Assembly (NCBI GenBank): GCA_946186495.1
Contig: CAMHNQ010000011.1
Coordinates: forward strand, 1-64,000
Reading direction: 5' to 3'
DNA from: an uncultured Bacteroidales bacterium
GTDB taxonomy: Bacteria > Bacteroidota > Bacteroidia > Bacteroidales > WCHB1-69
DNA: 64,000 nucleotides
Numbering within the stretch: the first letter of the stretch is position 1; each line of letters opens with the position of its first letter. Positions 4,910 through 20,911 of the stretch are shown here, in pieces. The notes below the pieces were generated by a model. The model did no database searches, was not told where the DNA came from, and was given only the letters and a program-made list of their open reading frames with translations. A program made the translations under genes and the position numbers.

Positions 4910-5686
4910 ATGGACTTCCACCTTTACGGCATTCCCGAAAAACCGGCCCTCCTGCTGCTTCCCGGCTTGGGAGTCTCGCACGAGATTTTCCTTCCGCTAA
5001 TAGAATTGCTAAAGGTGGACTTCCGCATTATAACGGCGGATATTGACGGCTTTTTGCTCGGCAAGCCCTCCCGTTTCACCTCCGTCGATGACCAGGCCGC
5101 GCAGGCTATCCGCTATGTGCAGGAGAATCTCGCTGGGCGAATGGATGTCGCCTACGGACTCTCGTTGGGCGGGAAAATCCTCTCGCGGATGCTGGAACGC
5201 AACGAGATCGTCATCGACCACGCCATCATGGATGCTGCACCGCTGTTACCGCTGCCCAGGTGGACCGTGGGACCGCTTCGCCACTACCAGGCCCTCAACG
5301 TGTGGACCTGCTACCACTGGACCGGCTTCTGGCGCTGGGTATTCCACTCGCACTACTTCGATGTGCTGTTGGATGAGGTCAGGAAGGTCTATCCGTCGGG
5401 GAAGACCCGCGCGGTGTTGGATGGGTACAAGTCGGTATATGCCAGCAGATTGGAATCCATTCACGGAGCCGACATCCACTATTGGCACGGCACCAAGGAG
5501 GCCTTCGTCGCGAAGCCGCAGGTCAAACACTTGCTCTCGCTATGTCCCAATGCACACGTGGAGGTCTTCGAGAAGATGAACCACGGCCAGCTGCTGGTGG
5601 ACCACCCGGAGGAGGTGGCGCGGAGGATACGGGCGATGGTTTCTTTGCCAAGTTCCCAAACAAAAATCGGCCAAATTCCCAAGTGA
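4910..5686 (+). CDS. Alpha/beta hydrolase
   Basis: MDFHLYGIPEKPALLLLPGLGVSHEIF...YGLSLGGKIL (nucleophile-elbow-like GLSLGG). Confidence 0.8.
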   Translation: MDFHLYGIPEKPALLLLPGLGVSHEIFLPLIELLKVDFRIITADIDGFLLGKPSRFTSVDDQAAQAIRYVQENLAGRMDVAYGLSLGGKILSRMLERNEIVIDHAIMDAAPLLPLPRWTVGPLRHYQALNVWTCYHWTGFWRWVFHSHYFDVLLDEVRKVYPSGKTRAVLDGYKSVYASRLESIHGADIHYWHGTKEAFVAKPQVKHLLSLCPNAHVEVFEKMNHGQLLVDHPEEVARRIRAMVSLPSSQTKIGQIPK

Positions 5687-5760
5687 AATTACGCCAATTC
5701 GCCGAATGATTTTTCGCCAATTCGCCGAATAAATTTTCGCCAATTCGCCGAATGAATTGG
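5646..5760. repeat. 5 x 23-bp tandem repeat array
   Basis: gcca phases exactly at 5647, 5670, 5693, 5716 and 5739; last three units CGCCAATTCGCCGAATnAwttnn near-identical. Confidence 0.9.
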
Positions 5761-5768
5761 AAAAATGC

Positions 5769-5776
5769 TATTTTTG
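5769..5776 (+). promoter_or_regulatory. Bacteroidetes -7 box TATTTTTG
   Basis: TATTTTTGCACC upstream of ATG at 5795; expected -33 region falls in repeat unit 5. Confidence 0.6.
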
Positions 5777-5794
5777 CACCTTAAAAAAATAGCG

Positions 5795-7081
5795 ATGGAT
5801 ACTTACAAGCCTAGAGTTGTCGATGAATTGCTGAAAAGGAAATTGGCTGGCAAAGGTGCCGTACTGATTAAAGGTCCCAAATGGTGCGGAAAAACCACGT
5901 CAGCCGAGCAAATTGCAAAAAGCGTCCTTTATATGGGCGATACAAAGACAAGGGAACATAATATCAAATTAGCGAATGTTGATCCCCACCTGATTTTAGA
6001 CGGCCCAACTCCTAGGCTTATCGACGAATGGCAAGAAGCCCCAGTGTTATGGGACGCAGTTCGTTTTGAGGTGGATCATCGCAAGGGCCACGGACATTTT
6101 ATCCTTACTGGTTCTGTGGTTGTAAAAGACGGGGAGGATGGTAATCCTCAAATACAGCACTCTGGAACCGGACGTATCGGACGAATAGTCATGAGGCCGA
6201 TGAGTTTATGGGAATCAGGTGATTCGAACGGCATGGTCAGTCTGGCGGAATTGTTTGGAACGCCAGAGCGCATTGCCGGAAAATGTGAACTTAACTTACA
6301 AGACATAGCATTTTTAACATGCCGTGGCGGTTGGCCCGACACAATTGACATGGAAAAGGAAGTTGCTTTGGATCAAGCTTTTGATTATGTCGATGCGGTA
6401 GCCGAAACCGATATTTCAGCGGCGGACAATATCCGAAAGAATCCAGAGCAAGTGAGACGACTACTCCGCTCGTATGCACGACATCAGGGGGCACAAGCGG
6501 CTTTAACCACTTTGAGAGATGATATGAAAGCTAATGAATCGACATCTTTTAGTGAAGATACGGTAGCTACATATCTTAAAGCTTTGAACAAGATTTACGT
6601 CGTTGAGGACATGCCTGCGTGGAATCCCAATCTGCGTTCAAAAACAGCCATAAGGACTTCTGATAACCGGTATTTTGTTGACCCATCAATCGCCACAGCA
6701 GCATTAGGACTGGGTCCTAACGATTTGATTAACGATTTAAATACTTTTGGACTGATTTTTGAAACTTTGTGTGTTCGCGATTTGCGTGTTTTTGCTGATG
6801 CCCTTGACGGCAGGGTTTATCACTATCGTGACAAGGACAAGTTGGAATGCGATGCTGTTGTCCATCTTCGCAATGGCTCCTATGGTCTTGTCGAAATCAA
6901 ACTCGGCGGCGACCAACTGATTAACGAAGGTGCAGAGAGCCTGTTGAAACTCAACAAAAAAATTGACACTACAAAAATGAAATCGCCTGCCTTTATGATG
7001 GTTCTAACGGCAGTGGGCTCTTACGCCTTTAGAAGAGAAGACGGAATTTATGTGGTGCCCATAGGGTGCTTGAAGGGGTAA
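5795..7081 (+). CDS. AAA_14/DUF4143-type ATP-binding protein (#1)
   Basis: Walker A GPKWCGKTT, IDEW Walker B-like, C-terminal KDKLECDAVVHLRNGSYGLVEIKLGG (nuclease-fold-like). Confidence 0.85.
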   Translation: MDTYKPRVVDELLKRKLAGKGAVLIKGPKWCGKTTSAEQIAKSVLYMGDTKTREHNIKLANVDPHLILDGPTPRLIDEWQEAPVLWDAVRFEVDHRKGHGHFILTGSVVVKDGEDGNPQIQHSGTGRIGRIVMRPMSLWESGDSNGMVSLAELFGTPERIAGKCELNLQDIAFLTCRGGWPDTIDMEKEVALDQAFDYVDAVAETDISAADNIRKNPEQVRRLLRSYARHQGAQAALTTLRDDMKANESTSFSEDTVATYLKALNKIYVVEDMPAWNPNLRSKTAIRTSDNRYFVDPSIATAALGLGPNDLINDLNTFGLIFETLCVRDLRVFADALDGRVYHYRDKDKLECDAVVHLRNGSYGLVEIKLGGDQLINEGAESLLKLNKKIDTTKMKSPAFMMVLTAVGSYAFRREDGIYVVPIGCLKG

Positions 7082-7110
7082 TAATTGTTTTTATTCTATT
7101 TTCAAAAATT

Positions 7111-7197
7111 ATGAAACGACTTTCTTTCTTCCTCGCATTGCTGTCTCTTTCCGTCACGGTTGCCTATGCGCAAACTCGACATATTGTTTACTGGTAG
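7111..7197 (+). pseudogene. Orphan signal-peptide mini-ORF (28 aa)
   Basis: MKRLSFFLALLSLSVTVAYAQTRHIVYW*: complete signal peptide with no mature domain. Confidence 0.5.
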
Positions 7198-7206
7198 CAA
7201 CAAGCC

Positions 7207-7398
7207 ATGATTTTTGAAATGAGCCATAAAAATTCCGCCTCCAACACCATCTCCTTCCTCGAATCCCTACGCAACGAAAAGCAGCGGGCAGTGCTGATGC
7301 GGTTCTTCAATCCCGCATACGAAATGCCCCGTACCGCCCTTCGCTACGCCATCGAAAAGATGGATGACGAGGAACGGAGGATGTGGATGGAGAGGTAG
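7207..7398 (+). pseudogene. Internally deleted AlkD-like DNA alkylation repair protein
   Basis: N-part ISFLESLRNEKQRAVLMRFF joined to C-terminal signature EMPRTALRYAIEKMDDEERRMWMER; about 150+ aa of the middle missing. Confidence 0.7.
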
Positions 7399-7430
7399 AG
7401 AAGATGCACAAATCGTCACAGACTATCTAA

Positions 7431-8867
7431 TCAATAATACCGGATTTTGCAATGGCTGTATAATTTCCCTTTTTGGTAACTTCGCGTCCAGTTGCCATGC
7501 CGGTCATAGCGGTAACTGAACAATGTTTTATTATAGTCGAACGTGTCCAGCCGCTTCGAACAGCATCTGCCAAGTTCGTCACCCTGGGCGTTGAGCACGG
7601 TAGCGTCAAGAAAACCAAACCCTTGATATTCGTAATAGACGTTGCGCTCGTCATCATAAACGGTGACTTGGCAATGACTTACGGTATATCCGTCTCTGGA
7701 CTCAATCCAAAGCACTTCACGACCAAGACTGTCATATTGGAGTATGCTACATCCATTTCGAAAAGTTGCCAGACGCTCTCCTTCGGGGGAAAGCACCACG
7801 CGACAACTGGATGTAGCCATAGCAATGGTGTCGCAACCAGCCGCGAGCGAATTCCAAACCCGACCTTCAAAATGGAATTCCTGACAATGACAGGGGTCTG
7901 AAAAGCGGTAGAGCGTGACAGAGTGGAGCGTGTCGTTCCAATAGACAACTTCCCGTGAAACGTGGTTCTGGGTGTATTCATAGTGCTCGTCAACGTAAAC
8001 TTTCTGGCCATCTTGACGGATTCGATGATGCTGAAAGCGGGCAATGGTGCTGTCAGAATTAAAGCTGACTTTCACTTTTTCTTTGTCAACATACTTGATT
8101 GTCAAGCTTTTGACCCGTCCATTGGGATTGCGCCCGTAGTAGGCAACAGCGGATCTGACAAGCTCATCCTTTATGGGCGCCCGACGTGCTTCACGGTTCA
8201 GACTCTGCTCCATCAAGCGCAGATCTTCTGCAATCGAATCGCCAATGTTGCGCAAATAAATCCGAAATCCTGTCACGCTGTCGGCCACAAACGGAAGACG
8301 CAGAAACGCTTCGTTTTCTTCCTCGGACCAAGTGTCCACTTCACTATCGCAGCTATAACGCCACTCATACTCCCACCTTTCCTTTTCCTCTTGCCGATTT
8401 TTCTCATTCTCTTTCGCCCATTGTTTCTCCATTCGACGCTCTTTCTGCAGCATTTTCTGATAATTCACCTTCTCGTCCCGAATATAATGATAATAACAGC
8501 GCAAAATCACTCCTGACATATCATCTGGATGGTGGATTCCCTGTTCATCAAAGTAGGTCGCCAGACGGGAGCCACCCCAAAGTCCCCAATTGTTGCGTAT
8601 CCACATACCCAACGCGAGATGTGTCCTGGCCAAGAAATCCTTCTCCCCCACAGAAAGTATCCATTGCTTGTTTTCCGGTGTCAAAATGGAATCCAACTGT
8701 CGCATACAATCGGGCAAATCCACCGGAATATAGACCGTTTTCAACGAATCCACCTGTTGCTCAGTATTTTGCGCTAAACTAAACAGTGGAATTGCCGTCA
8801 TAAAAAGCAATATCCCCCAAAAAAACGACTGTGTAAAAAAATTGAGAAGTGGTGAATGGGTATTCAT
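7431..8867 (-). CDS. DUF6794-type secreted protein with YD-repeat-like C-terminus
   Basis: IPVDLPDCMRQLDSILTPENKQWIL...HLALGMWIRNNWGLWGGSRLATYFDEQGIHHPDDMSGVIL. Confidence 0.7.
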   Translation of the reverse strand: MNTHSPLLNFFTQSFFWGILLFMTAIPLFSLAQNTEQQVDSLKTVYIPVDLPDCMRQLDSILTPENKQWILSVGEKDFLARTHLALGMWIRNNWGLWGGSRLATYFDEQGIHHPDDMSGVILRCYYHYIRDEKVNYQKMLQKERRMEKQWAKENEKNRQEEKERWEYEWRYSCDSEVDTWSEEENEAFLRLPFVADSVTGFRIYLRNIGDSIAEDLRLMEQSLNREARRAPIKDELVRSAVAYYGRNPNGRVKSLTIKYVDKEKVKVSFNSDSTIARFQHHRIRQDGQKVYVDEHYEYTQNHVSREVVYWNDTLHSVTLYRFSDPCHCQEFHFEGRVWNSLAAGCDTIAMATSSCRVVLSPEGERLATFRNGCSILQYDSLGREVLWIESRDGYTVSHCQVTVYDDERNVYYEYQGFGFLDATVLNAQGDELGRCCSKRLDTFDYNKTLFSYRYDRHGNWTRSYQKGKLYSHCKIRYY

Positions 8868-8886
8868 CTTTCAATGATTTCGATCC

Positions 8887-8913
8887 GCAAAAGTACAAAA
8901 ATTGTACTTTTGC
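8887..8913. promoter_or_regulatory. Divergent back-to-back -7 boxes in a 12-bp inverted repeat
   Basis: GCAAAAGTACAA-AAA-TTGTACTTTTGC; TACTTTTG on + at 8905-8912 and on - at 8895-8888. Confidence 0.75.
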
Positions 8914-8933
8914 CACCTCAAAAAAATTCCGGG

Positions 8934-9314
8934 ATGAAAAAACAGGAGAAATTTTCAATCGCCAAGAGACTTAAGAGCTTTACATACGCTTTCAACGGGC
9001 TGAAAGTGCTCTTTCAGGAGGAACACAACAGCCGGATACATCTGTTCGCGACCGTTTGCGTCGTCATCGCGGGCGCGCTGCTCAAACTGTCGGTGCTGGA
9101 ATGGGTGGCGGTTGCTTTTGCCGTCGGACTGGTGTTCAGCGGCGAAATCTTCAACTCGGCCATTGAGGATCTTGCCGATGTGGTGTGCCCCGAACGCGAC
9201 GAGCGTATCAAGAAGGTCAAAGACTTGGCCGCCGCTGCGGTCTTGGTGAATGCCATCACCGCAGCCGTCATCGGTTTGCTGGTTTTTGTCCCGAAAATCA
9301 TTCAATTGTTCTAG
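8934..9314 (+). CDS. dgkA: Diacylglycerol kinase family protein (DgkA/undecaprenol kinase-like)
   Basis: MKKQEKFSIAKRLKSFTYAFNGLKVLFQEEHNSRIHL...GEIFNSAIEDLADVV. Confidence 0.85.
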   Translation: MKKQEKFSIAKRLKSFTYAFNGLKVLFQEEHNSRIHLFATVCVVIAGALLKLSVLEWVAVAFAVGLVFSGEIFNSAIEDLADVVCPERDERIKKVKDLAAAAVLVNAITAAVIGLLVFVPKIIQLF

Positions 9315-9352
9315 ATGTTGACTGGTGTTTGTCATCCGAAATGCTACCGAGT

Positions 9353-9387
9353 TCTTGCCCCTAACGGGCTGCTTAAGGAATTATATT
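9353..9387. repeat. Dispersed motif TCTTGCCCCTAACGGGCTGCTTAAGGAATT (copy 1)
   Basis: Near-identical to 57856-57890. Confidence 0.7.
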
Positions 9388-9392
9388 TCAAA

Positions 9393-9427
9393 TTAAACCT
9401 TAAACCCTAAACCCTAAACCCTACCCC
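9393..9427. repeat. Heptanucleotide tandem repeat (YTAAACC)n ending at the start codon
   Basis: TTAAACC TTAAACC CTAAACC CTAAACC CTACCCC, then ATG at 9428. Confidence 0.9.
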
Positions 9428-10408
9428 ATGTTTCTCGGTGAGCTAATCTCCTTGTTCGTCGCCCTTTCGTGGACCGCCACCGCGCTTTTCGCCGAGGTGG
9501 GCTCGAAGCGGATGGGCTCGTTGCCGTTCAACACAATACGGATGACGATGTCGCTGCTGTTCCTCATCCTCACGCTCTGGTTGGTGATGGGCGTGCCCTA
9601 CCCGCGCTACGCCGACGGCGGCACGTGGGGCTGGCTGCTGCTCTCGGGCGTGGTCGGCTACGTCATCGGCGACTACTGCCTGATGCAGGGCTACATCCAC
9701 ATCGGGTCGCGCTTCGGACAGCTCTTCATGACGCTTTCGGCCCCTACGGCGGCCCTCACGGGACGGGTTCTCCTCGGCGAGCAGATGCGCCCGGTCGCCA
9801 TCCTCGGCATGGTCGTCACCCTGAGCGGCATCGCCCTCTCGATTCTCTCGAAAAGCGATGATTCGGAGCATCACGGGCTGCGTTTCAAGCTGCCTGCCAA
9901 GGGCATCTTCTACGCGGCAATGGCCGGTATCTGTCAAGGTTTCGGACTGGTACTCAGCAAGATGGGACTCCAACACTACGAAGCGGCGCTCACGGTGCTC
10001 AACATTTCCCAGGATGCGGTCTTTGAAGGCGCGTTGCTGCCGTTGCCGGTCAGCATTTGCGTGCCTTTCGCCGCCACCACCATCCGCGCCTACATCGGGC
10101 TGGCGGGCTTTTTCCTCTCGCTGATGCTGTTCAGCAAAGACGGGCTGGCGAAGCTGCGCAGTGCCGTCCGCGACCGCAAGGCGATGGGATGCGTGTTCGC
10201 CTCCACCATCTTCGGACCGTTCATCGGGGTCAGCGCGTCATTGTTGGCCACGATGTACACCTCCGCAGGCATCGCGCAGACCATCTTCGCGCTCACGCCC
10301 ATCCTCATCATCGCCCCGGCGGCCATCCTATTCCACCAGAGAGTGACGGTCCGCGAGGTCATCGGCGCCGTCGTCAGCGTGGCGGGGGTGTGCATGTTCT
10401 TCGTGTAA
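9428..10408 (+). CDS. DMT family (EamA) transporter
   Basis: Ten-helix hydrophobic pattern, two EamA halves. Confidence 0.85.
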   Translation: MFLGELISLFVALSWTATALFAEVGSKRMGSLPFNTIRMTMSLLFLILTLWLVMGVPYPRYADGGTWGWLLLSGVVGYVIGDYCLMQGYIHIGSRFGQLFMTLSAPTAALTGRVLLGEQMRPVAILGMVVTLSGIALSILSKSDDSEHHGLRFKLPAKGIFYAAMAGICQGFGLVLSKMGLQHYEAALTVLNISQDAVFEGALLPLPVSICVPFAATTIRAYIGLAGFFLSLMLFSKDGLAKLRSAVRDRKAMGCVFASTIFGPFIGVSASLLATMYTSAGIAQTIFALTPILIIAPAAILFHQRVTVREVIGAVVSVAGVCMFFV

Positions 10409-10475
10409 TCTCCCGCTGAAACCGCTGATTAACGCAGACATTATTTCTGCGTCATTCTGAGCAGTCTGCGGGAGA
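10409..10475 (+). repeat. ~66-bp palindromic intergenic repeat, copy A
   Basis: TCTCCCGCTGAAACCGCTGATTAACGCAGACATTATTTCTGCGTCATTCTGAGCAGTCTGCGGGAGA. Confidence 0.85.
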
Positions 10476-10525
10476 ATGTCCAATAAAATCGTACTTTTGC
10501 ACCTCGAATTTCAAAAAACAGCCGT

Positions 10526-11368
10526 ATGAAAAACACCAAACTGATACTGCTCCTCGCAGCAGTGATGCTGACCGCCGTTGCCTGCGGTTCTAAGAAAGAG
10601 TCCCCGAAAGAGGAAGCCCCTAAGATGCTGGTCCTCTACTACTCCCAGACCGGCAACACCAAGGCCGTGGCGGATGCAATCGCCAACAAGCTCGGTGCCG
10701 ACATCGAGGAAATCACGATGGTTGACCCCTACGACCCTGACTTCCAGGCCACTATCGACCGTTGCAAGAAAGACCAGGAGCAGGGTGTCCTCCCCGAGAT
10801 TCAACCCGTAAAAGCGGACATCGCAAACTACGATGTCATCTTCCTCGGCTATCCCGTGTGGTTCGGGACTTATGCGCCGCCCGTGACCGCCTTCCTCAAC
10901 GGTGCCGACCTCAGCGGCAAGAAGATCGTGCCGTTCTGCACCTTCGGCAGCGGCGGACTGGAATCCAGCGTGAAGGATTTGGCGGCGGCTGAGCCCAACG
11001 CGGAGATCCTGCCCGGCTACGGAGTCCGCGCCGCCCGTCTGGAGGCGATGCCCCAAGAGGTTGACAATTTCTTGAAAGCCAATGGATTCCTTGAGGGTGA
11101 ATGCCCCCAGTTGGCGGACTTCCCCGCGCAGCACGAGGCGAGCGCTGACGAGACCGCCATCTTCGACGCGGCGGTCGATGGCTACCCGATGATCCATGCC
11201 AAGGCCAAGACGGTGGCCTCCCGCGACCTCCCCGACGGCACCGAATACCTCTTCACCGCCGTCAACCTTCCCCGCGAGGACAAGCCGGATATGTCCACTG
11301 ACGAGATCCAAGTATATGTGACGGTGGAGAAAGACAAGGCGCCGGTGTTCACGAAGGTGATACGGTAG
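10526..11368 (+). CDS. Flavodoxin (lipoprotein)
   Basis: Lipobox TAVAC; MLVLYYSQTGNTKAVADAIA; TACTTTTG at 10492. Confidence 0.85.
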   Translation: MKNTKLILLLAAVMLTAVACGSKKESPKEEAPKMLVLYYSQTGNTKAVADAIANKLGADIEEITMVDPYDPDFQATIDRCKKDQEQGVLPEIQPVKADIANYDVIFLGYPVWFGTYAPPVTAFLNGADLSGKKIVPFCTFGSGGLESSVKDLAAAEPNAEILPGYGVRAARLEAMPQEVDNFLKANGFLEGECPQLADFPAQHEASADETAIFDAAVDGYPMIHAKAKTVASRDLPDGTEYLFTAVNLPREDKPDMSTDEIQVYVTVEKDKAPVFTKVIR

Positions 11369-11374
11369 TTTGCT

Positions 11375-11440
11375 TTCCCGCGGAACTCGCTGATTTGCGC
11401 TGAAAAAGGGTCTGCGATGTTCTGCGAAGTCTGCGGGAGA
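11375..11440 (+). repeat. ~66-bp palindromic intergenic repeat, copy B
   Basis: TTCCCGCGGAACTCGCTGATTTGCGC...TCTGCGAAGTCTGCGGGAGA. Confidence 0.85.
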
Positions 11441-11510
11441 AAATTACAGCAAACTGCAACCTTTTGACACTTTTGTGTCATTATTGTAAAGTTGTTTAAA
11501 TGAACTCAAT

Positions 11511-13535
11511 ATGAAAAACATCCCCCTTGTGCTGGTCATTCTTTCGTTGCTATTTTCGGGCATAGCGCAGGAGCGCGAAAACCGTGACTATCGTGCTGAA
11601 CTTGATTTGCTGGGCGGCTTTCCCCTCTTCGCGCTCGCACCTGACGGAACCTGCTGGCTGACATCGGGGCGGGGCAAAGTCTATTACACCGATGACATCC
11701 ACTCCGACTGGCATTGCGCCTCACCGCTCTTTCTCGTTAACGATAACACTTGGATAACCGTAAATCAACTCTCTTTTATAGACACGAACACCGCCATAGC
11801 CGTCACATACGACGAGTGGGGAAAATGGAGTCATTGCTATCGCACTGAAAACCATGGCAAAAGTTGGTTTCAGCAAGCCGTAAGCGGGGATGTGGATCTC
11901 CGACAAGTTTGCACAGATGCGCAGGGTCATATTTGGTTGACTGGATCCGGCGAAGAAGCTATTCTCTACTATTCCGAAGACCATGGCGTAACCTTCACAC
12001 CACTGGAACGGCCGGTTATTTCAACAGATTGGGTAAATGTCACGGCATTTGACATGCGAGACGGGCTGTACGGCTTAGCTGGAGTCAACATCAAGCACGA
12101 CACCTTTCCGCTCATGCTGACGGAAGACAATTGGCGCACTTCAAAGCGGATTCCCACACCGTTAGGAGAAGGTAAAGAAATCAGCAAAGTGTTGATATGG
12201 AATGATTTATGGGTGATTCGGCAAGGAAGGGAGGTCTATTACTCATCTTCTCAAAATCTTCAGTGGCAGCGTTTTCCGATCACGGTCACGGATTTTTATC
12301 CTGACAGGGAACGCGGACATCTGATAGCCATCACCGACAATCTCGACGTGGTCGATTTCAGCTCCCCCACGGATTACCGGCCGTTCTCCCGCGAACCGCT
12401 GCCCGCAAAGCCTGCGGAGGCCGCTGTCTATCACGGAAAATTGTATGTATGGACGGTCGGTGGCTTCCTCTGCAAGGCAGACGAGGATGGGGTGGTTTTC
12501 GCTTTCCGTGGCTATACTTCGGATGAGGGCATCGAAAAACCCTATATGGTGAGGGACGGCGGCCAGCAGCTTTGGGGCGTTGACTTCCGCAACACGCTCT
12601 GCTTCGCCGACAAATCGGATGGCAGATGGTATCGCAAGCAGTATCTCCCAATGGATGTCGAAACATTCAAACTATTAAGTGACAGTGTGGCGCTGTTTTG
12701 GGACGGGCAGCGGCATTACACGTACTCCCTTGCCGACGATCAGCTGCGTCCTTACACCCTTTCCGCGCCTTTGGAGGGTTTTCTGAAAGCACCGATAACC
12801 GAGGTCGTTCTCTGCGGTGGGCTAACAAAATACCGTAGCGACACCGTCCGATACACTCTCACACCCGACGGCGATCTGCAGGCGAATCTTGCCACGTTGG
12901 TCTTGGACCAGTATGATCCGTGCTTTCCGAAAGCCAACGCCAAATACAAACGGAAAAGCATAAAGTTCCCGCATACCGCCAGTCGTCACGAATTGGACAG
13001 CATTCTTCGCGAAATCAACCGCGACTACACCCGCATTCCCAACATCGCCGAGATGCAAATCACCGAAAAAGACAAGAAGAACTACTTCAAACTGTTGAAA
13101 AAAAAGGAAATATGGTATCATGGAATCTTTCCGAATCCCAAAAATAAAAATGATGCTTTCGTTTATGATTATGCGAAGAATTTCCACCGGTCAGTGCCGG
13201 ATCGAATCGACACGCTGAGTGCCAACACAATACGGAAAATCCTGTACAAAGATGAAAACTGGAGGACCACAGGCGGAGTCTATTGGTTCGAGGTTCAGGT
13301 CATCAACAGCCGTCATGACACGCTCTGTTTCATCCATTTCAATTTGCGTAACGAATATGCCTGGTTCATCCCGTGGTTGACGGAATACAACGGCATCCCG
13401 TTCCGGTGTTACAGCCTTTCGCTTTCACGTTGGGTGTCGGAGTGCCTTCCAGAGAAGTTTTACGTCAAAGGGAGTTTCGACAACGCCCGTTTCTTGTTGC
13501 AGATTGCGGCCTATTTCTGGAAACAGGAGGATTAG
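11511..13535 (+). CDS. Secreted hypothetical protein, BNR/photosystem-stability-like beta-propeller N-terminal half
   Basis: Signal peptide; repeated YYTDD/YYSEDHGVTF/ENHGKSW motifs typical of BNR-type repeats. Confidence 0.6.
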   Translation: MKNIPLVLVILSLLFSGIAQERENRDYRAELDLLGGFPLFALAPDGTCWLTSGRGKVYYTDDIHSDWHCASPLFLVNDNTWITVNQLSFIDTNTAIAVTYDEWGKWSHCYRTENHGKSWFQQAVSGDVDLRQVCTDAQGHIWLTGSGEEAILYYSEDHGVTFTPLERPVISTDWVNVTAFDMRDGLYGLAGVNIKHDTFPLMLTEDNWRTSKRIPTPLGEGKEISKVLIWNDLWVIRQGREVYYSSSQNLQWQRFPITVTDFYPDRERGHLIAITDNLDVVDFSSPTDYRPFSREPLPAKPAEAAVYHGKLYVWTVGGFLCKADEDGVVFAFRGYTSDEGIEKPYMVRDGGQQLWGVDFRNTLCFADKSDGRWYRKQYLPMDVETFKLLSDSVALFWDGQRHYTYSLADDQLRPYTLSAPLEGFLKAPITEVVLCGGLTKYRSDTVRYTLTPDGDLQANLATLVLDQYDPCFPKANAKYKRKSIKFPHTASRHELDSILREINRDYTRIPNIAEMQITEKDKKNYFKLLKKKEIWYHGIFPNPKNKNDAFVYDYAKNFHRSVPDRIDTLSANTIRKILYKDENWRTTGGVYWFEVQVINSRHDTLCFIHFNLRNEYAWFIPWLTEYNGIPFRCYSLSLSRWVSECLPEKFYVKGSFDNARFLLQIAAYFWKQED

Positions 13536-13539
13536 GGCA

Positions 13540-13558
13540 TGCGAAGTCTGCGGGAAAA
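13540..13558 (+). repeat. ~66-bp repeat, partial copy C (3' arm only)
   Basis: TGCGAAGTCTGCGGGAAAA. Confidence 0.6.
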
Positions 13559-13614
13559 AACAATAAAAGTGTATTTTCGCGGCCTCTTATCAAACAAATT
13601 TCTAAACGTAAAAA

Positions 13615-14325
13615 ATGAAAGAAAAGACTGCATTCATCACTGGGGCCAACAAAGGAATCGGATTCGGCATTGCAAAACATCTCGGCCTGAGCGGCTGGAG
13701 AATCATCATCGGGGCGCGAAATCAGGAACGTGCGGAGAAGGCCATCCGCGAACTCACCGCCTTGGGCATCGATGTGCCCGGATGGGTATGCGTGGAACTG
13801 GCCGACCTTGCGAGCGTGGAAAACGCCGCCCGCGAGTTGAACGACAAATATCCGGAACTTGCGCTGTTGGTGAACAACGCCGGCATCCCGGGCGACATGG
13901 GCGTGGACAGCCTCCATACGGAAATCGGCGACATCCGGGAGACCCTCGAAGTGAACTTCGTCGGCACTTTCGCGCTCACCAAGCTGCTGATGCCTCTGCT
14001 TGCGAAGAACTACGGCCGGATTGTCAACGTCACCGTGCCGTCGGAAATCAGTCCCTACTGGCATCCGTTAGCCTACGTGACGAGCAAGGCCGCCCAAAAC
14101 GCCATGATGGGCGTGATGGCCATCGAGTTCCAGCAGCACAACACCCCGTTGGAGATTTTCTCGGTGCACCCGGGTCCCACCACCACCGACCTCAACGGTA
14201 ACATGAGTTTCCCCGGCTTCCACGACATTGACACGGTAGGTGAGAAGATGGCCGAGCTCATCAACGACGGTCAAAGCCACCAGGGCGAATTCGTGGAGCT
14301 TTACCCGATTGTGAAAGAAGATTAG
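13615..14325 (+). CDS. SDR family NAD(P)-dependent oxidoreductase
   Basis: KTAFITGANKGIGFGIAKHL; NNAG; Y..SK motif region YVTSKAA. Confidence 0.9.
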   Translation: MKEKTAFITGANKGIGFGIAKHLGLSGWRIIIGARNQERAEKAIRELTALGIDVPGWVCVELADLASVENAARELNDKYPELALLVNNAGIPGDMGVDSLHTEIGDIRETLEVNFVGTFALTKLLMPLLAKNYGRIVNVTVPSEISPYWHPLAYVTSKAAQNAMMGVMAIEFQQHNTPLEIFSVHPGPTTTDLNGNMSFPGFHDIDTVGEKMAELINDGQSHQGEFVELYPIVKED

Positions 14326-14334
14326 CCGAATGGT

Positions 14335-14400
14335 TTCCCCGCAGAACTCGCTGGTTTGCGTGGAAAATGGTCTGCGTTAATCTGCGAGATCTGCGGGAGA
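14335..14400 (+). repeat. ~66-bp palindromic intergenic repeat, copy D
   Basis: TTCCCCGCAGAACTCGCTGGTTTGCG...TCTGCGTTAATCTGCGAGATCTGCGGGAGA. Confidence 0.85.
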
Positions 14401-14417
14401 AAGGAATATCTCCCGTC

Positions 14418-14503
14418 GGAAAAAAGTTGCATTATGCATTCCGATACATTGGAAAAAAGTTGTATTTTTGCAGTCTGAATCCTGGAAAAAAGTTGCATTA
14501 TGC
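14418..14503. repeat. 3 direct repeats (GGAAAAAAGTTGCATTATGC) at 33-bp period over promoter and start codon
   Basis: Copies start at 14418, 14451 and 14484; middle copy carries TATTTTTG; third copy carries the ATG at 14500. Confidence 0.9.
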
Positions 14504-15828
14504 TTCGTAGAAAAATCGACAAAGTATTTGATAATTGGGCAAATAAAAACAAAAAGAAAGCACTTTTTGTTGAAGGTGCCAGACAAGTAGGAAAAACCAC
14601 TTCCATCAGGGAACTTGCTCGTCGGCATTACAAGCATTTCATTGAAATCAATTTCATCAAAACCCCATCCGTGAAAAAGGCTTTTGGCGGTGATCTGGAT
14701 GCCAACACCATTATTCTTAACCTTTCAGCGATGGGATTAGGCCCTTTTGTCCCGGGTGAGACCTTGATTTTTTTCGATGAGATTCAAGAGTGCCCCAACG
14801 CTCGGGCTGCTATCAAATTTCTCGTGGAGGATGGTACATTCGACTATGTGGAATCTGGGTCCCTGCTTGGGATTCATTATAAAGGGGAGGAAGATTCCGA
14901 GGATGAGGTTGGGGAAATCCCTTCCATACCCGTTGGATCAGAAGAAACCGTGGAGATGTATCCTTTTGATTTCGAGGAGTTTCTCTGGGCGGCAGGTATT
15001 ACCGAGGATGTCATTGGCATATTGAAGAATGCTTTCTCCACGAGCAGAGCCGTTCCGGAGTTTGTCCACGACCAGATTATGCGCCGATACGCACAATATA
15101 TGGCTGTGGGGGGATTACCAGAAGTAGTCGCTAGTTTTATGGATAACCGTGATTTCTCCGTGGTTCTTAACATGCAGAACAATCTTTTGGCTGGCTACAG
15201 AAGGGACATTTCCAAATATGCAGGCAAAGACAAAGTGTTGGTGAAGCGGGTGTTTGACGCTATCCCGGCTCAATTGGCGAAACCGGACAAGCGTTTTGTG
15301 CTGGCGGACTTGGAACACGGGGCAAGCCGCCGCAAATATGCCGATCCCACCCAGTGGCTGATAGATGCCGGAATGGCTTATTATGCCATACAAACCAATG
15401 CACTGTCACTTCCGTTGTCTAACGTGGAGAATCGCCGACTATACAAATTGTATCTGTTGGATAATGGGCTTCTATGCAATATGAGTCTGCCACGGCAATA
15501 TTTTGCCGTTATGAACGGTGAACTCGACCTGAATGAAGGTGCTATGACAGAAAACTTTGTGGCCGCCGAATTGGTGAAAAAAGGTTACCCGTTGCATTAT
15601 TTCGACCAAAAAAGCAAACACGAACTTGACTTTGTTTTGCCCGCTGAGGAGGGTATTCAGATTGTGGAGGTGAAGTCTGGAAGCAATTTCCGCCGTCACG
15701 CCTCCTTGGATTACGCTTTGGCGCATTCACATTCTATAATATCCGAGGCCATAGTGCTTTGCAACTCCAATGTGGTGCTGGCTAATGGCATTCGCTACCT
15801 GCCGCTGTATATGGCTATGTTTCTATAG
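14500..15828 (+). CDS. AAA_14/DUF4143-type ATP-binding protein (#2)
   Basis: Walker A VEGARQVGKTTS; LIFFDEIQECPNA; SGSLLGI; C-terminal KHELDFVLPAEEGIQIVEVKSG. Confidence 0.9.
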   Translation: MLRRKIDKVFDNWANKNKKKALFVEGARQVGKTTSIRELARRHYKHFIEINFIKTPSVKKAFGGDLDANTIILNLSAMGLGPFVPGETLIFFDEIQECPNARAAIKFLVEDGTFDYVESGSLLGIHYKGEEDSEDEVGEIPSIPVGSEETVEMYPFDFEEFLWAAGITEDVIGILKNAFSTSRAVPEFVHDQIMRRYAQYMAVGGLPEVVASFMDNRDFSVVLNMQNNLLAGYRRDISKYAGKDKVLVKRVFDAIPAQLAKPDKRFVLADLEHGASRRKYADPTQWLIDAGMAYYAIQTNALSLPLSNVENRRLYKLYLLDNGLLCNMSLPRQYFAVMNGELDLNEGAMTENFVAAELVKKGYPLHYFDQKSKHELDFVLPAEEGIQIVEVKSGSNFRRHASLDYALAHSHSIISEAIVLCNSNVVLANGIRYLPLYMAMFL

Positions 15829-16065
15829 TATTCTTTCAATTTGAAAACAAGTATCCTTTCAAAATCGTTCTTTCCGCGTCAGTCTACGGGGAAACGTCTC
15901 ACGCCTTTTTCCCGTCAAGGATTTTTTCAAATTGGGGGCGGAAGTTGTACTGTGGGGCTTTTCAGCATATAGTGGGAAAATTATCAGTAGGGATGAATTT
16001 TGCGGTCTCACAAAAATGTTGTATTTTTGCAGTTGTCTAATGGATAGAAAAGTTTAAAAAATTTT

Positions 16066-16746
16066 ATGGAAAAGAAAATAAAAGCAATGTTTGTGAATGG
16101 CAGTCCGCGGAAAAACTGGAACACTGCCAAAATGTTGGAGAGTGCCATGAAGGGTGCCACAGAGGCCGGTGCGGAGTGCGAGCTGGTGAACCTCTACAGC
16201 ATCGACTTCAAAGGATGCAAGAGCTGCTTCGCCTGTCAGCTGAAAGACGCCAAGACCGACGGCGTGTGTGCGCTGAAAGATGATCTGAGGCCCCTGTTAG
16301 AGCGTTGCCGGGAGGCTGGTGTCATCGTGGTGGGTTCGCCCGTGTATCTGAGCTATCCCACGGGAGAGACGCGCTCGTTCCTCGAAAGACTGGTGTTCCC
16401 CAACTTCACCTACGACATCGACGAGCAGGGCAATCGCCGCCGCCCCATCAACGAGAAGCAGACGGCCATGATATTCACGATGAACATCCCCGAGGAGGCG
16501 ATGGAGGAGTGGCGCTATCCCGTGCTGCTCGGCACATGCGCCAAACAGCTGAGCGAGAACTTCGGGCACAGCGAGACGCTTTACGCCTGCAACACCTACC
16601 AGTTCAACGACTACTCGCGCTACGCCTTCACGTACTTCTCCGAGGAGGACAAACGCCGTTACCGCGACGAACACTTCGCCACCGACCTGCAAAACGCTTA
16701 CGAGTTGGGGCAGCGTCTGGTTGTCAAGGCGCAAAAGGGAGAGTAG
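16066..16746 (+). CDS. Flavodoxin family / NADPH-dependent FMN reductase-like protein
   Basis: KAMFVNGSPRKNWNTAKMLESAMKGA...CKSCFACQLKD. Confidence 0.85.
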   Translation: MEKKIKAMFVNGSPRKNWNTAKMLESAMKGATEAGAECELVNLYSIDFKGCKSCFACQLKDAKTDGVCALKDDLRPLLERCREAGVIVVGSPVYLSYPTGETRSFLERLVFPNFTYDIDEQGNRRRPINEKQTAMIFTMNIPEEAMEEWRYPVLLGTCAKQLSENFGHSETLYACNTYQFNDYSRYAFTYFSEEDKRRYRDEHFATDLQNAYELGQRLVVKAQKGE

Positions 16747-16855
16747 CAAGCCAGCGGAAGCTCATCGCCGCACCGGCTCGCACTGGCAAAAGCGTCAGGC
16801 GATGGACGCTGGTGCTTTTGCCGGACATTGGGAGGTGTTGAAATAAACGGACAAT

Positions 16856-17065
16856 ATGACCACAAAACTCTTTCTCCAAGCCCTGATAAAGTTCCTCGCC
16901 GGATTAGTGCTGGCTTCCCCGTGGTCGTTTCTGACTATGCTGCTCTACATCCCCATCATCGCCAAGCGCATCCGCAACGAGGAGGCCGTCTTGGAGCAGG
17001 GACTTGAAGGTTATACGGAGTACAAACAAAAAGTTCGGTACAAGGTGATCCCGTTTGTGTGGTAG
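16856..17065 (+). pseudogene. Internally deleted isoprenylcysteine carboxyl methyltransferase-like protein
   Basis: N-end MTTKLFLQALIKFLAGLVL fused to C-end ASPWSFLTMLLYIPIIAKRIRNEEAVLEQGLEGYTEYKQKVRYKVIPFVW; central catalytic region absent. Confidence 0.7.
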
Positions 17066-17075
17066 AGTGAATGAA

Positions 17076-17091
17076 TATTTTTGTATTTTTG
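17076..17091 (+). promoter_or_regulatory. Tandem duplicated -7 boxes TATTTTTGTATTTTTG
   Basis: Two exact 8-bp copies upstream of ATPase #3. Confidence 0.6.
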
Positions 17092-17096
17092 CATCC

Positions 17097-17141
17097 GAAA
17101 GTTCAGAAAAGTGTATGGGTATTACACAAAATCAAACTTTC
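17097..17141. promoter_or_regulatory. Nested symmetric inverted repeat upstream of ATPase #3
   Basis: GAAAGTT-N7-GTGTA-N7-TACAC-N7-AACTTTC. Confidence 0.7.
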
Positions 17142-17152
17142 CAATGTAGTAT

Positions 17153-18490
17153 ATGAAAATAGAAAGAGATATCATCAACCTGTTCAAAGCATGGAAAGAG
17201 GCTCCTGATAGGAAACCGATTCTGCTGAAAGGCGCACGCCAGATTGGTAAAACGTGGGCCATGGAGACATTCGGCAAGGAGTGTTTCAAGTATTGCGTGA
17301 AGTTTGATTTCGACCGGCAACCGGAACTGAAGTCGTTGTTTGAAATCACGAAGGATCCTAAACGTCTGATTAAGGAGTTGACGCTTTATTGCGAACAGCC
17401 CATCATTGCTGGAGAGACGCTGGTGATTTTCGATGAAATACAAGAATGCGAAGAGGCATTTAACAGTTTGAAGTATTTCTGTGATGAAGCACCCCAGTAT
17501 CACATCATTGCGGCAGGTTCGTTGCTGGGTGTGGCGGTGAAAAAGCGCAGGATGACGGTGCCTGTCGGTAAAGTGAAAATCATCAACATGTTCCCTGTCA
17601 CCTTCAAGGAGTTCCTGCGCGCCAGCGATGTGCGTACATACGAGTATATCAACTCATTGGACGAAATCCGCCATTTGCCGGAAATCATCATGAACAAGTT
17701 ACGTACAGAATACAGGCGCTACCAAGTGTCTGGAGGCATGCCGGAAGCCATTGTGTCACTGCTTGAAGACAAGGGCATTGGGGAGGTGGAATCGACTTTG
17801 CAAGGCATTCTTGATCTTTATGAACTTGACTTTGCCAAATATGCCGAGCCACGCGAGATTCCGCGCATTCATGCCGTTTGGCACTCGCTGCCTGCCCAAT
17901 TGTCGAAGGAAAATCGGAAGTTCGTATGGAAGGTCATCAAAACGGGCGCACGTTCCAAGGACTACGAAGACGCCCTCTTGTGGTTGGAAGATGCGGGGAT
18001 GATTCATCGCATCTTCAGCATCAGCAAGCCTGGAATGCCGCTTTCTGCATACGAGGAAACAGATGCTTTCAAGGTTTATGCCTGCGACTGCGGCTTGCTC
18101 CGCCGTTTGGCACATCTGCCCGCAACGGTTGTCACAGATCCTATCGCTAATTATACTGAGTTCAAAGGGGCCATGGCTGAAAATGCTGTGCTTCAGTCCA
18201 TCATGCCTCTTCTGGACGATCAGAAACCCTATTATTGGACATCACCCGGAACGGCAGAAGTGGAATTTGTCATCCAATGGGATGATGAAATCATACCCGT
18301 AGAGGTCAAAGCAGAAGACAACATCAGCGGCAACAGCCTCGCTGTTTATACGAAAAAATATAATCCTCGGTATCGAATGCGTTTTTCCATGCTCAACCTC
18401 CAGTACAACGGCGGAATGCTTAGCAGTCCCGCCCCATTGGCGGGTTGGATGGACAAATGGATGACCTTGTTAAGAAGTGTCACCGAATAA
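17153..18490 (+). CDS. AAA_14/DUF4143-type ATP-binding protein (#3)
   Basis: Walker A LKGARQIGKTWA; LVIFDEIQECEEA; AGSLLGVAV; C-terminal EVEFVIQWDDEIIPVEVKAEDN. Confidence 0.9.
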   Translation: MKIERDIINLFKAWKEAPDRKPILLKGARQIGKTWAMETFGKECFKYCVKFDFDRQPELKSLFEITKDPKRLIKELTLYCEQPIIAGETLVIFDEIQECEEAFNSLKYFCDEAPQYHIIAAGSLLGVAVKKRRMTVPVGKVKIINMFPVTFKEFLRASDVRTYEYINSLDEIRHLPEIIMNKLRTEYRRYQVSGGMPEAIVSLLEDKGIGEVESTLQGILDLYELDFAKYAEPREIPRIHAVWHSLPAQLSKENRKFVWKVIKTGARSKDYEDALLWLEDAGMIHRIFSISKPGMPLSAYEETDAFKVYACDCGLLRRLAHLPATVVTDPIANYTEFKGAMAENAVLQSIMPLLDDQKPYYWTSPGTAEVEFVIQWDDEIIPVEVKAEDNISGNSLAVYTKKYNPRYRMRFSMLNLQYNGGMLSSPAPLAGWMDKWMTLLRSVTE

Positions 18491-18514
18491 ATACGGTTAA
18501 GGACTTCCACATTT

Positions 18515-18578
18515 ATGCAGAACCTGTAGATTAATGCGTACCTTTTTTCTGCGTTAATCTGCGAAGTCTGCGGGAGAA
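18515..18578 (+). repeat. ~66-bp palindromic intergenic repeat, copy E
   Basis: TGCAGAACCTGTAGATTAATGCG...TCTGCGTTAATCTGCGAAGTCTGCGGGAGA. Confidence 0.8.
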
Positions 18579-18579
18579 A

Positions 18580-19398
18580 CTATTTCAGCGCCCCGACCGG
18601 ACACGCCTTCTTGCACTGCTGACAGAGAATGCACTCGGTGGCGTTCTTCCGCTTGCGCGAATTGTTGTTGACTTCCACCTCCATCGGGCAGACTTTCAGG
18701 CACTTGTCGCAATGGATGCACTTCGCCTCGTCGCACTTGATGCGCAGTAACGAGAAGTAGCTCATCGGCTTCAGGAAGACGGTGATTGGGCAGATGTACT
18801 TGCAGAAGGCGCGGTTGTCCTTCAACACGATGGCCAGGACGATTCCGACGGCGTAGTAGAGCACATTCCCGGCCACGAAAAGGTAGAACATCGTCGTTTT
18901 GTCGGCTTTGCCGAGGCACATCAGCAGGATGACGATGGCGAGTGACAGCGCGAACATCACATAGCGCACCCATCCGAAGGATTTCCTTGGTTTCTCAGGC
19001 TGCTTGTAGGGCAGCAGGTCGAGGATCATGGCGGTCCAGCAGGCGAACCCGCACCAGCCGCGCCCGAACATCAACGGCCCGAAGATCTTGGCGATGAGGT
19101 AGTGCAGCACCCCCGCCCCGACGACCCCGGAGAGAAGATAATACCAGAATCCCTCCATCTGCATGTTCTCGCGACATATAAGGCCGAGGAACACCAAAAT
19201 GTAGCTGCCAACGGTGAACTGCACGAACTCGCGGGCGTGTTTCCACCCCGCCGCCATCAATATTCCCCCAACACCGAGGCAGATGCCGATGTAAGAAAAG
19301 TTCAACAGAAAGAAGAGATTTCCTGTTGAGAGCCAAAGCGATACGGCAATGACCTCGAAAATGGCGAACAGGAGGATGGGGGTTCTGTATTTCTTCAT
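18580..19398 (-). CDS. 4Fe-4S binding membrane protein (NapH/NosR-like)
   Basis: Hydrophobic N-terminus; CIHCDKCLKVCP and CILCQQCKKACP clusters; RGWCGFACW. Confidence 0.85.
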   Translation of the reverse strand: MKKYRTPILLFAIFEVIAVSLWLSTGNLFFLLNFSYIGICLGVGGILMAAGWKHAREFVQFTVGSYILVFLGLICRENMQMEGFWYYLLSGVVGAGVLHYLIAKIFGPLMFGRGWCGFACWTAMILDLLPYKQPEKPRKSFGWVRYVMFALSLAIVILLMCLGKADKTTMFYLFVAGNVLYYAVGIVLAIVLKDNRAFCKYICPITVFLKPMSYFSLLRIKCDEAKCIHCDKCLKVCPMEVEVNNNSRKRKNATECILCQQCKKACPVGALK

Positions 19399-19437
19399 AA
19401 CGGGATGTTTTTAACGGCGCGAAAATAGGAAAAAATC

Positions 19438-19504
19438 TTCTCCCGCAGAACCCGCTGATTTGCGCAGAAAAAGGTCTGCGTTATTCTGCGCAGTCTGCGG
19501 GAAA
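19438..19504 (+). repeat. ~66-bp palindromic intergenic repeat, copy F
   Basis: TTCTCCCGCAGAACCCGCTGATTTGCGCAGAAAAAGGTCTGCGTTATTCTGCGCAGTCTGCGGGAAAA. Confidence 0.85.
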
Positions 19505-19526
19505 ATTTTTATTCTTGCACGATGAT

Positions 19527-19589
19527 TTTTATCTTCTGTAAAAGATAAAATATTATTTTTGCAGCGAATTTCTTTTATAAAAGATAAAA
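19527..19589. promoter_or_regulatory. Dyads and direct repeats flanking -7 box of ATPase #4
   Basis: TTTTATCTT-N6-AAGATAAAA (19527-19550); TATTTTTG 19554-19561; TCTTTTATAAAAGA palindrome 19571-19584; TAAAAGATAAAA repeated at 19539 and 19578. Confidence 0.8.
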
Positions 19590-19595
19590 CACAAA

Positions 19596-20801
19596 ATGAG
19601 TGCGATATTAAGACAGAGCTATTTAGAAAAGATCGAGCATTATCTCGGCAAAGATACCATCATCATTCTGACGGGACAGCGAAGAATTGGCAAAAGCTAC
19701 ATCCTTCGTCTGTTCAGAGACAAGATGAAAAAGGACAGACAGGCCAATGTTATCTTCATTGACAAGGAGAAACACGAGTTTGACGACATCAGGACCTACC
19801 AGGACTTGAACACCTATATTGATGCAAGGCGTAACAAAGCCAAAACGAATTTCATCCTTGTTGACGAGATTCAGGACATTGAAGGATTCGAGAAGAGCGT
19901 GCGCAGCTACTATGAGGAGGCAGATATAGAGATTGTCGTTACCGGCTCCAATTCGAAGATGCTCAGTAGTGACTTGAGCACCCTTATCGGCGGCCGTTAC
20001 AAGGAAATTTACATCCAAGCATTGAGTTATGAGGAGTTTATGTTGTTTCATCAGCTACCTGACTCCGACGACACTCTCATAAAATATATCCAGTTTGGCG
20101 GTCTGCCGGGCTTGCTGAAGATGGGTCTTGACGAACAGGATGCGCGTGAGTACCAGATGGATGTGTATCACACTGTTTTGCTGAAAGATGTGATAATGAG
20201 ATATCAAATCCGTAACGTTCCTTTCCTTGAAAATCTTGTTCGGTTTCTGGCTGACAATACGGGGAAGATTATCTCGGCCAACAGTATCGCCAAGTATATG
20301 AAGTCTCAGGGCGACAACATCACTTCAACTGCCATCATTAACTACACCAAATATCTGTGCGATGCTTATATGATACATCGTGTGCATCGTTACGACATAC
20401 ACGGGAAGAAGCTGTTCGAGAGCAACGACAAGTTCTACTTTGAGGACAACGGAATCCGTAATGCCCTTGCAGGCGGCACACGCGAGGGTGACATAGAGAA
20501 GGTGGTAGAGAATATCGTATATAGCCATCTGAAACGTCTCGGTTATGAAGTGACAGTGGGTCAGCTGCAAGCTGGAGAAATTGACTTTGTCTGCACCAAG
20601 TCTGAAGGTCAGCGCGTATATGTGCAGGCATCGTATATTATTGCCGATGAGGTCACTCGTGAACGTGAGTTTGGCAATCTGCGGGCTATCAAGGACAACT
20701 ACCCGAAATATGTCATCTCAATGACTCCGTTAGTCAGCCGTCAGGACTCGGACGGCATCACGCACCTCAGCTTGAGGCATTTCCTGACGGAAGGACTGTA
20801 G
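19596..20801 (+). CDS. AAA_14/DUF4143-type ATP-binding protein (#4)
   Basis: Walker A LTGQRRIGKSYI; FILVDEIQDIEGF; VTGSNSKMLSSDL; C-terminal AGEIDFVCTKSEGQRVYVQASY. Confidence 0.9.
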   Translation: MSAILRQSYLEKIEHYLGKDTIIILTGQRRIGKSYILRLFRDKMKKDRQANVIFIDKEKHEFDDIRTYQDLNTYIDARRNKAKTNFILVDEIQDIEGFEKSVRSYYEEADIEIVVTGSNSKMLSSDLSTLIGGRYKEIYIQALSYEEFMLFHQLPDSDDTLIKYIQFGGLPGLLKMGLDEQDAREYQMDVYHTVLLKDVIMRYQIRNVPFLENLVRFLADNTGKIISANSIAKYMKSQGDNITSTAIINYTKYLCDAYMIHRVHRYDIHGKKLFESNDKFYFEDNGIRNALAGGTREGDIEKVVENIVYSHLKRLGYEVTVGQLQAGEIDFVCTKSEGQRVYVQASYIIADEVTREREFGNLRAIKDNYPKYVISMTPLVSRQDSDGITHLSLRHFLTEGL

Positions 20802-20827
20802 ATGCAAGAAAATCTCAGGTGCACTGG

Positions 20828-20911
20828 ATCATCGTGGTATTTGAAACCGAACGCTTGCTGATCACGGACTTCACGTTGGACATAACAGAGCGAGTCCATT
20901 ATTATAGATAA
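20828..20911 (+). pseudogene. N-terminal relic of a GNAT N-acetyltransferase
   Basis: IIVVFETERLLITDFTLDITERVHYYR*, resembling the (F/L)ETxRLxIxxFTLDM start of GNAT proteins. Confidence 0.5.

Follow-up and report, generated by a model that had tools for sequence, protein, structure and literature searches.

Private phased repeats at the promoters of AAA_14/DUF4143 ATPase–nuclease genes suggest autoregulated, defence-like cassettes

The window analysed here, a 64,000-nt stretch of contig CAMHNQ010000011.1 from an uncultured Bacteroidales bacterium, contains four ATPase genes of one family, each described in the initial annotation as carrying its own repeat or dyad at the promoter. What binds these repeats, and do they mark the genes as self-contained units that control their own expression?

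Four ATPase genes and their predicted fold

Pfam identified four full-length AAA_14 (PF13173) and DUF4143 (PF13635) proteins, all encoded on the forward strand: ATPase #1 (5795–7081), #2 (14500–15828), #3 (17153–18490) and #4 (19596–20801). ATPases #1, #3 and #4 are 20–30% identical to #2, and four of the 23 family genes lie inside 14 kb (P ~0.002, assuming uniform placement). All four proteins strongly match the PADLOC models for PDC-S01, a single-gene phage-defence candidate, over their full length (PDLC04790, PDLC04792, PDLC04786 and PDLC04787, respectively; E 3e-61 to 2e-159). The common layout first proposed for them holds in every case, except that an intact nuclease motif is not universal: the ExD..ExK catalytic residues are kept in #1–#3, but #4 retains its Walker motifs and has lost the ExK half (YVQ). 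Almost every family member outside the #4 clade conserves the catalytic residues; within that clade, the nuclease motif is lost and the 33/23-bp array described below is absent in 9/9 genes.

The AlphaFold2 model of #2 was confident, with helices at residues 242–289 and wing strands at 293–319. In Foldseek, this model matched the archaeal Walker ATPase 2qen first and Orc1/Cdc6 bound to origin DNA second and third, all significantly but with low TM-scores (0.2–0.5). No Orc/Cdc6 Pfam match was found in the four proteins, and phmmer of #2 against the PDB found no ATPase relative. In the best model, the proteins combine an AAA+ ATPase resembling Orc1/Cdc6, a winged-helix-like segment and a nuclease domain of the PD-(D/E)XK type.

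Archaeal Orc1/Cdc6 initiators are AAA+ proteins with a winged helix that bind repeated boxes. The likeness of our ATPases to them consists of these low-TM matches of #2; unlike the initiators, they have no family-level Pfam match, carry a nuclease domain, and have their repeats at the gene's own promoter rather than at an origin. By description, the same domain order occurs in arCOG03166 (AAA+ ATPase, HTH and RecB-type nuclease), labelled 'Likely involved in defense (or some plasmid gene)' (PMC4158269); that set is archaeal, and the account of it in the passages concerned describes no regulatory DNA. PDC-S01 itself, an ATPase fused to PD-(D/E)XK, is reported to be the fourth most common putative prokaryotic defence system and experimentally unvalidated; validation is reportedly pending for most such candidates (PMC12988326). 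In the open-licence literature we found no demonstration of a family member acting against phage, no mechanism for PDC-S01, and no mention of the features that set the present genes apart, namely private phased arrays, a subfamily-specific pitch and a nuclease-dead branch. The family is a very common yet uncharacterised ATPase–nuclease gene and a candidate phage-defence gene.

Repeats at the four promoters and across the family

Direct and inverted repeats were scored as z against dinucleotide shuffles of the promoter DNA. The #1 promoter (direct repeats, z ~35) carries about five tandem 23-bp units on the forward strand (5646–5759), with the core CGCCAATTCGCCGAAT exact at 5692, 5715 and 5738, followed by a consensus match to the Bacteroidota −7 element, TATTTTTG, at 5769–5776. 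At #2 (z ~12), three copies of GGAAAAAAGTTGCATTATGC begin at 14418, 14451 and 14484 (array 14418–14503, 33-bp spacing); the second contains the −7 element (14463–14470) and the third overlies the start codon. The #4 repeats (z ~4–5; 19532–19589), TCTTCTGTAAAAGATAAAA at 19532 and TCTTTTATAAAAGATAAAA at 19571, are spaced by 39 bp and lie either side of the −7 element (19554–19561). Taken alone, the #3 promoter gave non-significant scores for both direct (z −0.8) and inverted (z −0.1) repeats. It holds an inverted dyad at 17097–17141 (arms 17097–17115 and 17123–17141), just downstream of the −7 element (17084–17091), and five orthologs preserve the dyad pattern GAAAGTT-n-GTGTA / TACAC-n-AACTTTC, with upstream DNA that has otherwise diverged in two of them. 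The proposed repeat or dyad at all four promoters therefore stands as significant direct repeats at #1, #2 and #4 and as a weak, ortholog-conserved inverted dyad at #3.

The claim that the repeat word differs from gene to gene was upheld. Twelve units searched locally, over 375 kb, were private to their own promoters, and in whole-genome searches exact copies of the #1 core, and copies of the #2 core pattern with up to one mismatch, occurred at their own promoter only.

We then compared 88 AAA_14+DUF4143 genes from ten phyla with 155 neighbouring genes. Significant upstream direct repeats (z>4) preceded 69/88 family genes (78%) vs. 12/155 controls (8%; Fisher p 3e-30), and a period of 32–34 bp or its double was present in 65/88 vs. 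0/155. In the Bacteroidales set, upstream repeats occurred at 55% of family genes and 10% of controls (p 4e-16), so the predicted enrichment across the family was borne out. Phased arrays were detected in eight phyla and lie within ~150 bp of the start codon across phyla with differing promoter types; in roughly one-quarter to one-half of the genes no array is detectable. In support of the −7 assignment, the sequence TANNTTTG was found within the last 110 bp in 95% of family genes vs. 49% of controls.

The pitch tracks the protein, being 23 bp in 11/11 genes of the clade to which #1 belongs. Repeat similarity correlates with protein similarity (Mantel 0/500), and relatives of #2 with 43–59% identity from Bacteroidales, Fibrobacteraceae, Treponema and Clostridia retain kindred units. 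The arrays are also directional: among 99 33-bp genes, the GAAAAnTG core runs only with the gene in 44 and only against it in 2. Between orthologs, conservation is marginally higher in units (78%) than in spacers (74%), a weak signal. Protein variation tracked the unit best at residues 121–155 and 211–235, outside the winged-helix-like segment and again weakly (partial r 0.16–0.20), and co-variation was set aside as a way to map the specificity region.

Cassette turnover and the proposed role of the arrays

Comparison of syntenic sites in close species showed the genes gained, lost or displaced, bearing out the presence/absence polymorphism that had been predicted. Relative to genome G010, #1 is an insertion spanning 5642–7201 that replaced the final codons of an abhydrolase gene; in G010, which lacks #1, the abhydrolase gene almost abuts an AlkD relic. 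The #2 cassette, array plus gene (14412–15846), is bounded identically in two relatives: in G009, which has it on the opposite side of an SDR gene, and in G006, whose copy is deleted. ATPase #3 is missing at the syntenic site in G021, G014 and G005, and the #4 block (19438–21005, comprising an intergenic palindrome, #4 and downstream DNA) is 98.9% identical in G014 at another position. Elsewhere, syntenic slots are occupied by SoFic, the YafQ toxin or another PDC-S01. The idea of self-contained cassettes with private promoter repeats is upheld by this polymorphism together with the family-wide upstream repeats, and a defence-like label is reasonable, given the PADLOC assignment and the slots shared with SoFic and YafQ. 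Phages and plasmids were rejected as the chief carriers, with #2 matching 11/50,697 phage and 59/72,556 plasmid records.

Each gene has its own word, which occurs nowhere else where this was tested; therefore, each gene is probably under its own control and moves as a self-contained unit, and autoregulation is our best inference. We think it rather probable that the ATPase–nuclease oligomerises on the phased array in front of its own gene and thereby represses that gene. Under this autorepression model, each single-gene cassette would encode the predicted AAA+, winged-helix-like and nuclease segments, and the private array at its promoter would hold two to four sites that face one way and follow a constant pitch. 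This pitch is 32–34 bp (three helical turns) for the main family and 23 bp for the clade of #1, while the group of #3 has an inverted pair. The geometry of the oligomer would set the pitch, and its binding would silence the promoter and keep a dangerous ATPase–nuclease scarce until repression was lifted by invasion or by the protein's loss. We infer nuclease activity and defence in the same way as self-binding and repression, and the likely role would be defence or abortive infection.

Toxin–antitoxin operons and restriction–modification controller genes likewise hold a harmful product low by self-binding at promoter repeats. YafQ and Fic genes turn up in the same chromosomal slots as the ATPase genes; in contrast to toxin–antitoxin operons and controller genes, the cassette makes one protein with no partner gene (#2 is a single gene, not the pair of a type II toxin–antitoxin system), and has a directional 33-bp array rather than short palindromes.

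The array may instead activate its promoter, because in Bacteroidota it is mostly found upstream of −7 and its overlap with the core promoter is at the random level. In 40 scored Bacteroidota genes, the array lay upstream of −7 in 27, spanned it in 12 and lay downstream in 1. Copies overlapped the core promoter no more often than expected for random placement near the gene, and such overlap was dropped as evidence of repression; in other phyla, the −35 fell inside a copy in 45% of genes vs. 35% expected, which is not convincing. We also consider it possible, if doubtful, that the array goes beyond an operator and is the protein's address, where a phased oligomer is parked at the sole matching place in the genome until a disturbance of the complex frees it or turns it to cutting. 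If so, every PDC-S01 gene would by itself form a recognition module with a specificity of its own, and these specificities would diversify like those of restriction–modification systems.

The arrays are placed at promoters like any operator, as they would be if they were bound not by the ATPase but by some other host regulator, or by a regulator of a single kind in each lineage. However, every unit searched genome-wide is confined to one promoter, so this explanation needs a dedicated regulator per gene; moreover, the mobile #2 cassette carries no second gene, the pitch goes with the ATPase clade, and kindred units are kept across phyla. We therefore regard a host regulator as unlikely. Fainter still is the prospect that the repeats are ends or iterons for mobility or replication rather than gene control. 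The #1 and #2 arrays do mark the left border of the moved segment, and cassettes do shift position (#2 in G009, #4 in G014), but the matching ends of a self-mobile element, judged by unit copies within 800 bp downstream, were present in 2/109 genes and absent in 107/109. Furthermore, the units are private and fixed in direction relative to the gene, and #4 moved with an edge palindrome that lies outside its array.

A function in RNA, as leader structure or small guide-like RNA, seems very improbable: some copies lie within the leader or overlap the start codon (#2 copy 3; loci L156, L160 and L161), but the 27 Bacteroidota genes noted above have all copies centred upstream of −7, and therefore outside the mRNA, the fixed 32–34 bp pitch suits helical phasing of DNA, and the arrays have no Rfam match. 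Finally, 8–10% of control genes score too, but chance or the composition of AT-rich intergenic DNA is already refuted at the present sample size: the shuffles preserved dinucleotides, the controls came from the same loci, and the 32–34 bp period or its double separates 65/88 family genes from 0/155 controls.

The arrays supply a specific candidate for the DNA ligand of the PDC-S01 family and a sequence signature for recognising its members. Matched with their proteins, they also form a ready-made collection of protein/DNA pairs from which specificity could be read.

Neighbouring relics and palindromes

The ATPases had also been described as sitting next to dead genes. This was confirmed for an AlkD-like relic after #1 (7207–7398, forward strand), which has a related relic in G010 and a longer remnant in G020, and for an isoprenylcysteine-methyltransferase-like relic before #3 (16856–17065, forward strand), which has an internal deletion and longer, apparently full-length copies in G021, G014, G005 and G009. 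The GNAT relic proposed beside #4, with only ~20 recognisable residues, could not be confirmed, and the signal-peptide relic after #1 is plausible by eye only. A causal tie to decaying genes fails, because the AlkD relic occurs in G010 without #1 and the #3 of G009 adjoins an apparently full-length methyltransferase gene; such genes also occupy the #3-empty sites of G021, G014 and G005.

A ~65-bp intergenic palindrome, CCCGCAGAA..TTCTGCGGG, borders the #2 cassette on its left (14335–14402), with further copies at 10406–10477, 11374–11442, 18517–18578 and 19438–19506. In this genome, palindromes accompany 3/19 ATPase genes vs. 10/286 others. They were set aside as a general companion of the family; because they are concentrated in this window, they are a local one.

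Phased promoter arrays in the ATPase family

The four ATPase genes of the window (#1, 5795-7081; #2, 14500-15828; #3, 17153-18490; #4, 19596-20801) all encode AAA_14 and DUF4143 domains (Pfam) and match PDC-S01, the PADLOC single-gene defence candidate, and the proteins of #1, #3 and #4 are 20-30% identical to that of #2. The window's contig (G000:C11) belongs to a Bacteroidales assembly of 3.30 Mb with 23 DUF4143 matches, four of which fall inside 14 kb (P ~0.002, uniform placement). The initial annotation placed a repeat or dyad at all four promoters. When the stretch from -170 to +25 of each gene was compared with dinucleotide-preserving shuffles, direct repeats were significant upstream of #1, #2 and #4; #3 had no significant direct repeat in that stretch. 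The dyad of #3 (17097-17141), weak when taken by itself, is nevertheless kept in five orthologs, in two of which the upstream DNA has otherwise diverged.

The phased promoter array is a family-wide trait, and the proposed enrichment of upstream repeats over matched genes was borne out at each scale. In the window's own genome, 13/19 family genes had a direct repeat with z>4, vs. 12% of 153 comparison genes preceded by 100 bp or more of intergenic sequence. In the Bacteroidales genomes searched, such repeats preceded 55% of 76 family genes and 10% of 304 controls, from which those with an intergenic region common to a family gene had been removed (p = 4e-16; medians of 21 protein clusters against unfiltered controls, p = 2e-5). 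A cross-phylum set, selected for resemblance to proteins of the window and containing relatives that are not independent, had them in 69/88 genes vs. 12/155 controls (p = 3e-30), and a spacing of 32-34 bp or its double occurred in 65/88 genes and 0/155 controls. Together, the Bacteroidales set and a separate collection scan of 80 loci covered Bacteroidota, Bacillota, Fibrobacterota, Spirochaetota, Chlamydiota, Actinomycetota, Pseudomonadota, Mycoplasmatota, Chloroflexota and archaeal Thermoplasmatota. Arrays of the 32-34 bp class were found in eight of these ten phyla, and were not seen at the single Mycoplasmatota gene or the single Chloroflexota gene. In the protein tree, the trait is spread throughout a large clade. 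We found no mention of such arrays in a limited search of the open-licence literature.

Array pitch depends on the clade, and array direction is common. In the 162-protein tree, the 23-bp class makes up a single clade (11/11 members) that includes #1, with one further 45-bp case outside it, and the nine proteins of the #4 clade lack a 33- or 23-bp array. The GAAAAnTG core ran only gene-ward in 44 cases and only the opposite way in 2. Among genes without direct repeats, 21-29% had inverted repeats vs. 6% of controls; #3 and its clade are of this kind.

Many units in Chlamydiota and Collinsella relatives (L206, L200, L217, L220, L212) themselves look palindromic (inverted-repeat z 4.9-14.6). An ATPase_2-like gene (L078, at 8637) has a strong promoter repeat (51 nt, 75-bp spacing, z 14), and similar arrays may therefore exist in related ATPase families. 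A 33-bp-spaced upstream repeat (z 7) also precedes a minus-strand control gene, Fic-like by eye, that starts near 6562 of L103; the Fic genes of L091 and L300 lack one.

Array units and their ATPases

For the units tested, each was exclusive to its own promoter. With up to one mismatch, the #2 core found only its own three copies in the whole genome; the #1 core found its own three exact copies and two single two-mismatch sites. When 12 own-genome units were scanned over 375 kb of that genome, nearly all matches lay at the own promoter. The match at L066 (9434-9640) is an orphan array, after which just the 3' end of the same ATPase gene is left; it marks a deleted second copy of the cassette, ~1.3 kb from the intact one.

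The more alike two proteins were, the more alike were their units (Mantel, 0/500). Kindred words are retained by #2 relatives from other lineages, for example TGGAAAAAAGTTGCAAA in Bacteroidales (L141, L142), TTGCAAAAAGTTG in Fibrobacteraceae (L145), GAAAAACGTTACAAAA in Treponema (L146) and AAAAACGTCGCAAAAT in Lachnospiraceae (L148). We infer that the ATPase itself binds its array, and that this binding would repress.

The AlphaFold2 model of #2 (39 sequences, pLDDT 90) can be read as an AAA+ domain, helices with a two-strand wing (~242-319) and a predicted PD-(D/E)XK-like fold (344-442). Its best Foldseek matches in the PDB were the archaeal ATPase 2qen and DNA-bound Orc1/Cdc6 proteins, with low TM-scores. 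The Walker lysine and DE pair are invariant (162/162 proteins), and 141/142 main-family proteins have the nuclease residues E-D/E-E-K. The common layout first described, with an ExD..ExK nuclease segment, extends to the 23-bp clade of #1 (11/11) and fails in the #4 clade, where all nine PDC-S01 proteins have lost ExK (YxQ) and retain the Walker motifs.

The purpose of these genes may be defence. PDC-S01 is reported as an unvalidated, very common candidate in which an ATPase is fused to PD-(D/E)XK (PMC12988326), and a survey of rumen genomes describes it as the commonest single defence locus there (PMC13356809). The archaeal family arCOG03166, which shares the domain order of the window ATPases, is classed as likely defence (PMC4158269).

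Cassettes at syntenic sites

The ATPase genes are polymorphic for presence at syntenic sites, a comparison that the initial annotation had proposed, and #1, #2 and #3 are each missing from some same-genus genomes. #1 is absent in G010, G014 and G021; at its site in G010, the AlkD relic begins almost directly after the abhydrolase gene. In G009, the #2 segment (14412-15846) is found on the opposite side of the SDR gene; G006 keeps only its two ends, and G021 and G005 lack it altogether. G006, G009 and G010 carry #3, which is missing from G021, G014 and G005. #4 and its flank form a 98.9% identical block at a different position in G014, vs. 94.6% identity for the neighbouring Fe-S gene, which suggests recent transfer of the block. 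Other occupants of these slots are a SoFic-like Fic gene (in G010 and G002), a YafQ toxin gene (in G021) and a different PDC-S01 ATPase (in G002).

The proposed tie between these cassettes and decaying genes was rejected. The AlkD relic (7207-7398) is also found where #1 is absent. In G009, the methyltransferase gene that is a relic in the window (16856-17065) appears full-length beside #3; decay is thus independent of the ATPases.

Five copies of a 65-bp intergenic palindrome (CCCGCAGAA..TTCTGCGGG) cluster in a 10-kb region of the window (10406-10477, 11374-11442, 14335-14402, 18517-18578 and 19438-19506), vs. about five matches elsewhere in the 311 kb of this genome that were scanned. These palindromes sit at the edges of moved segments.
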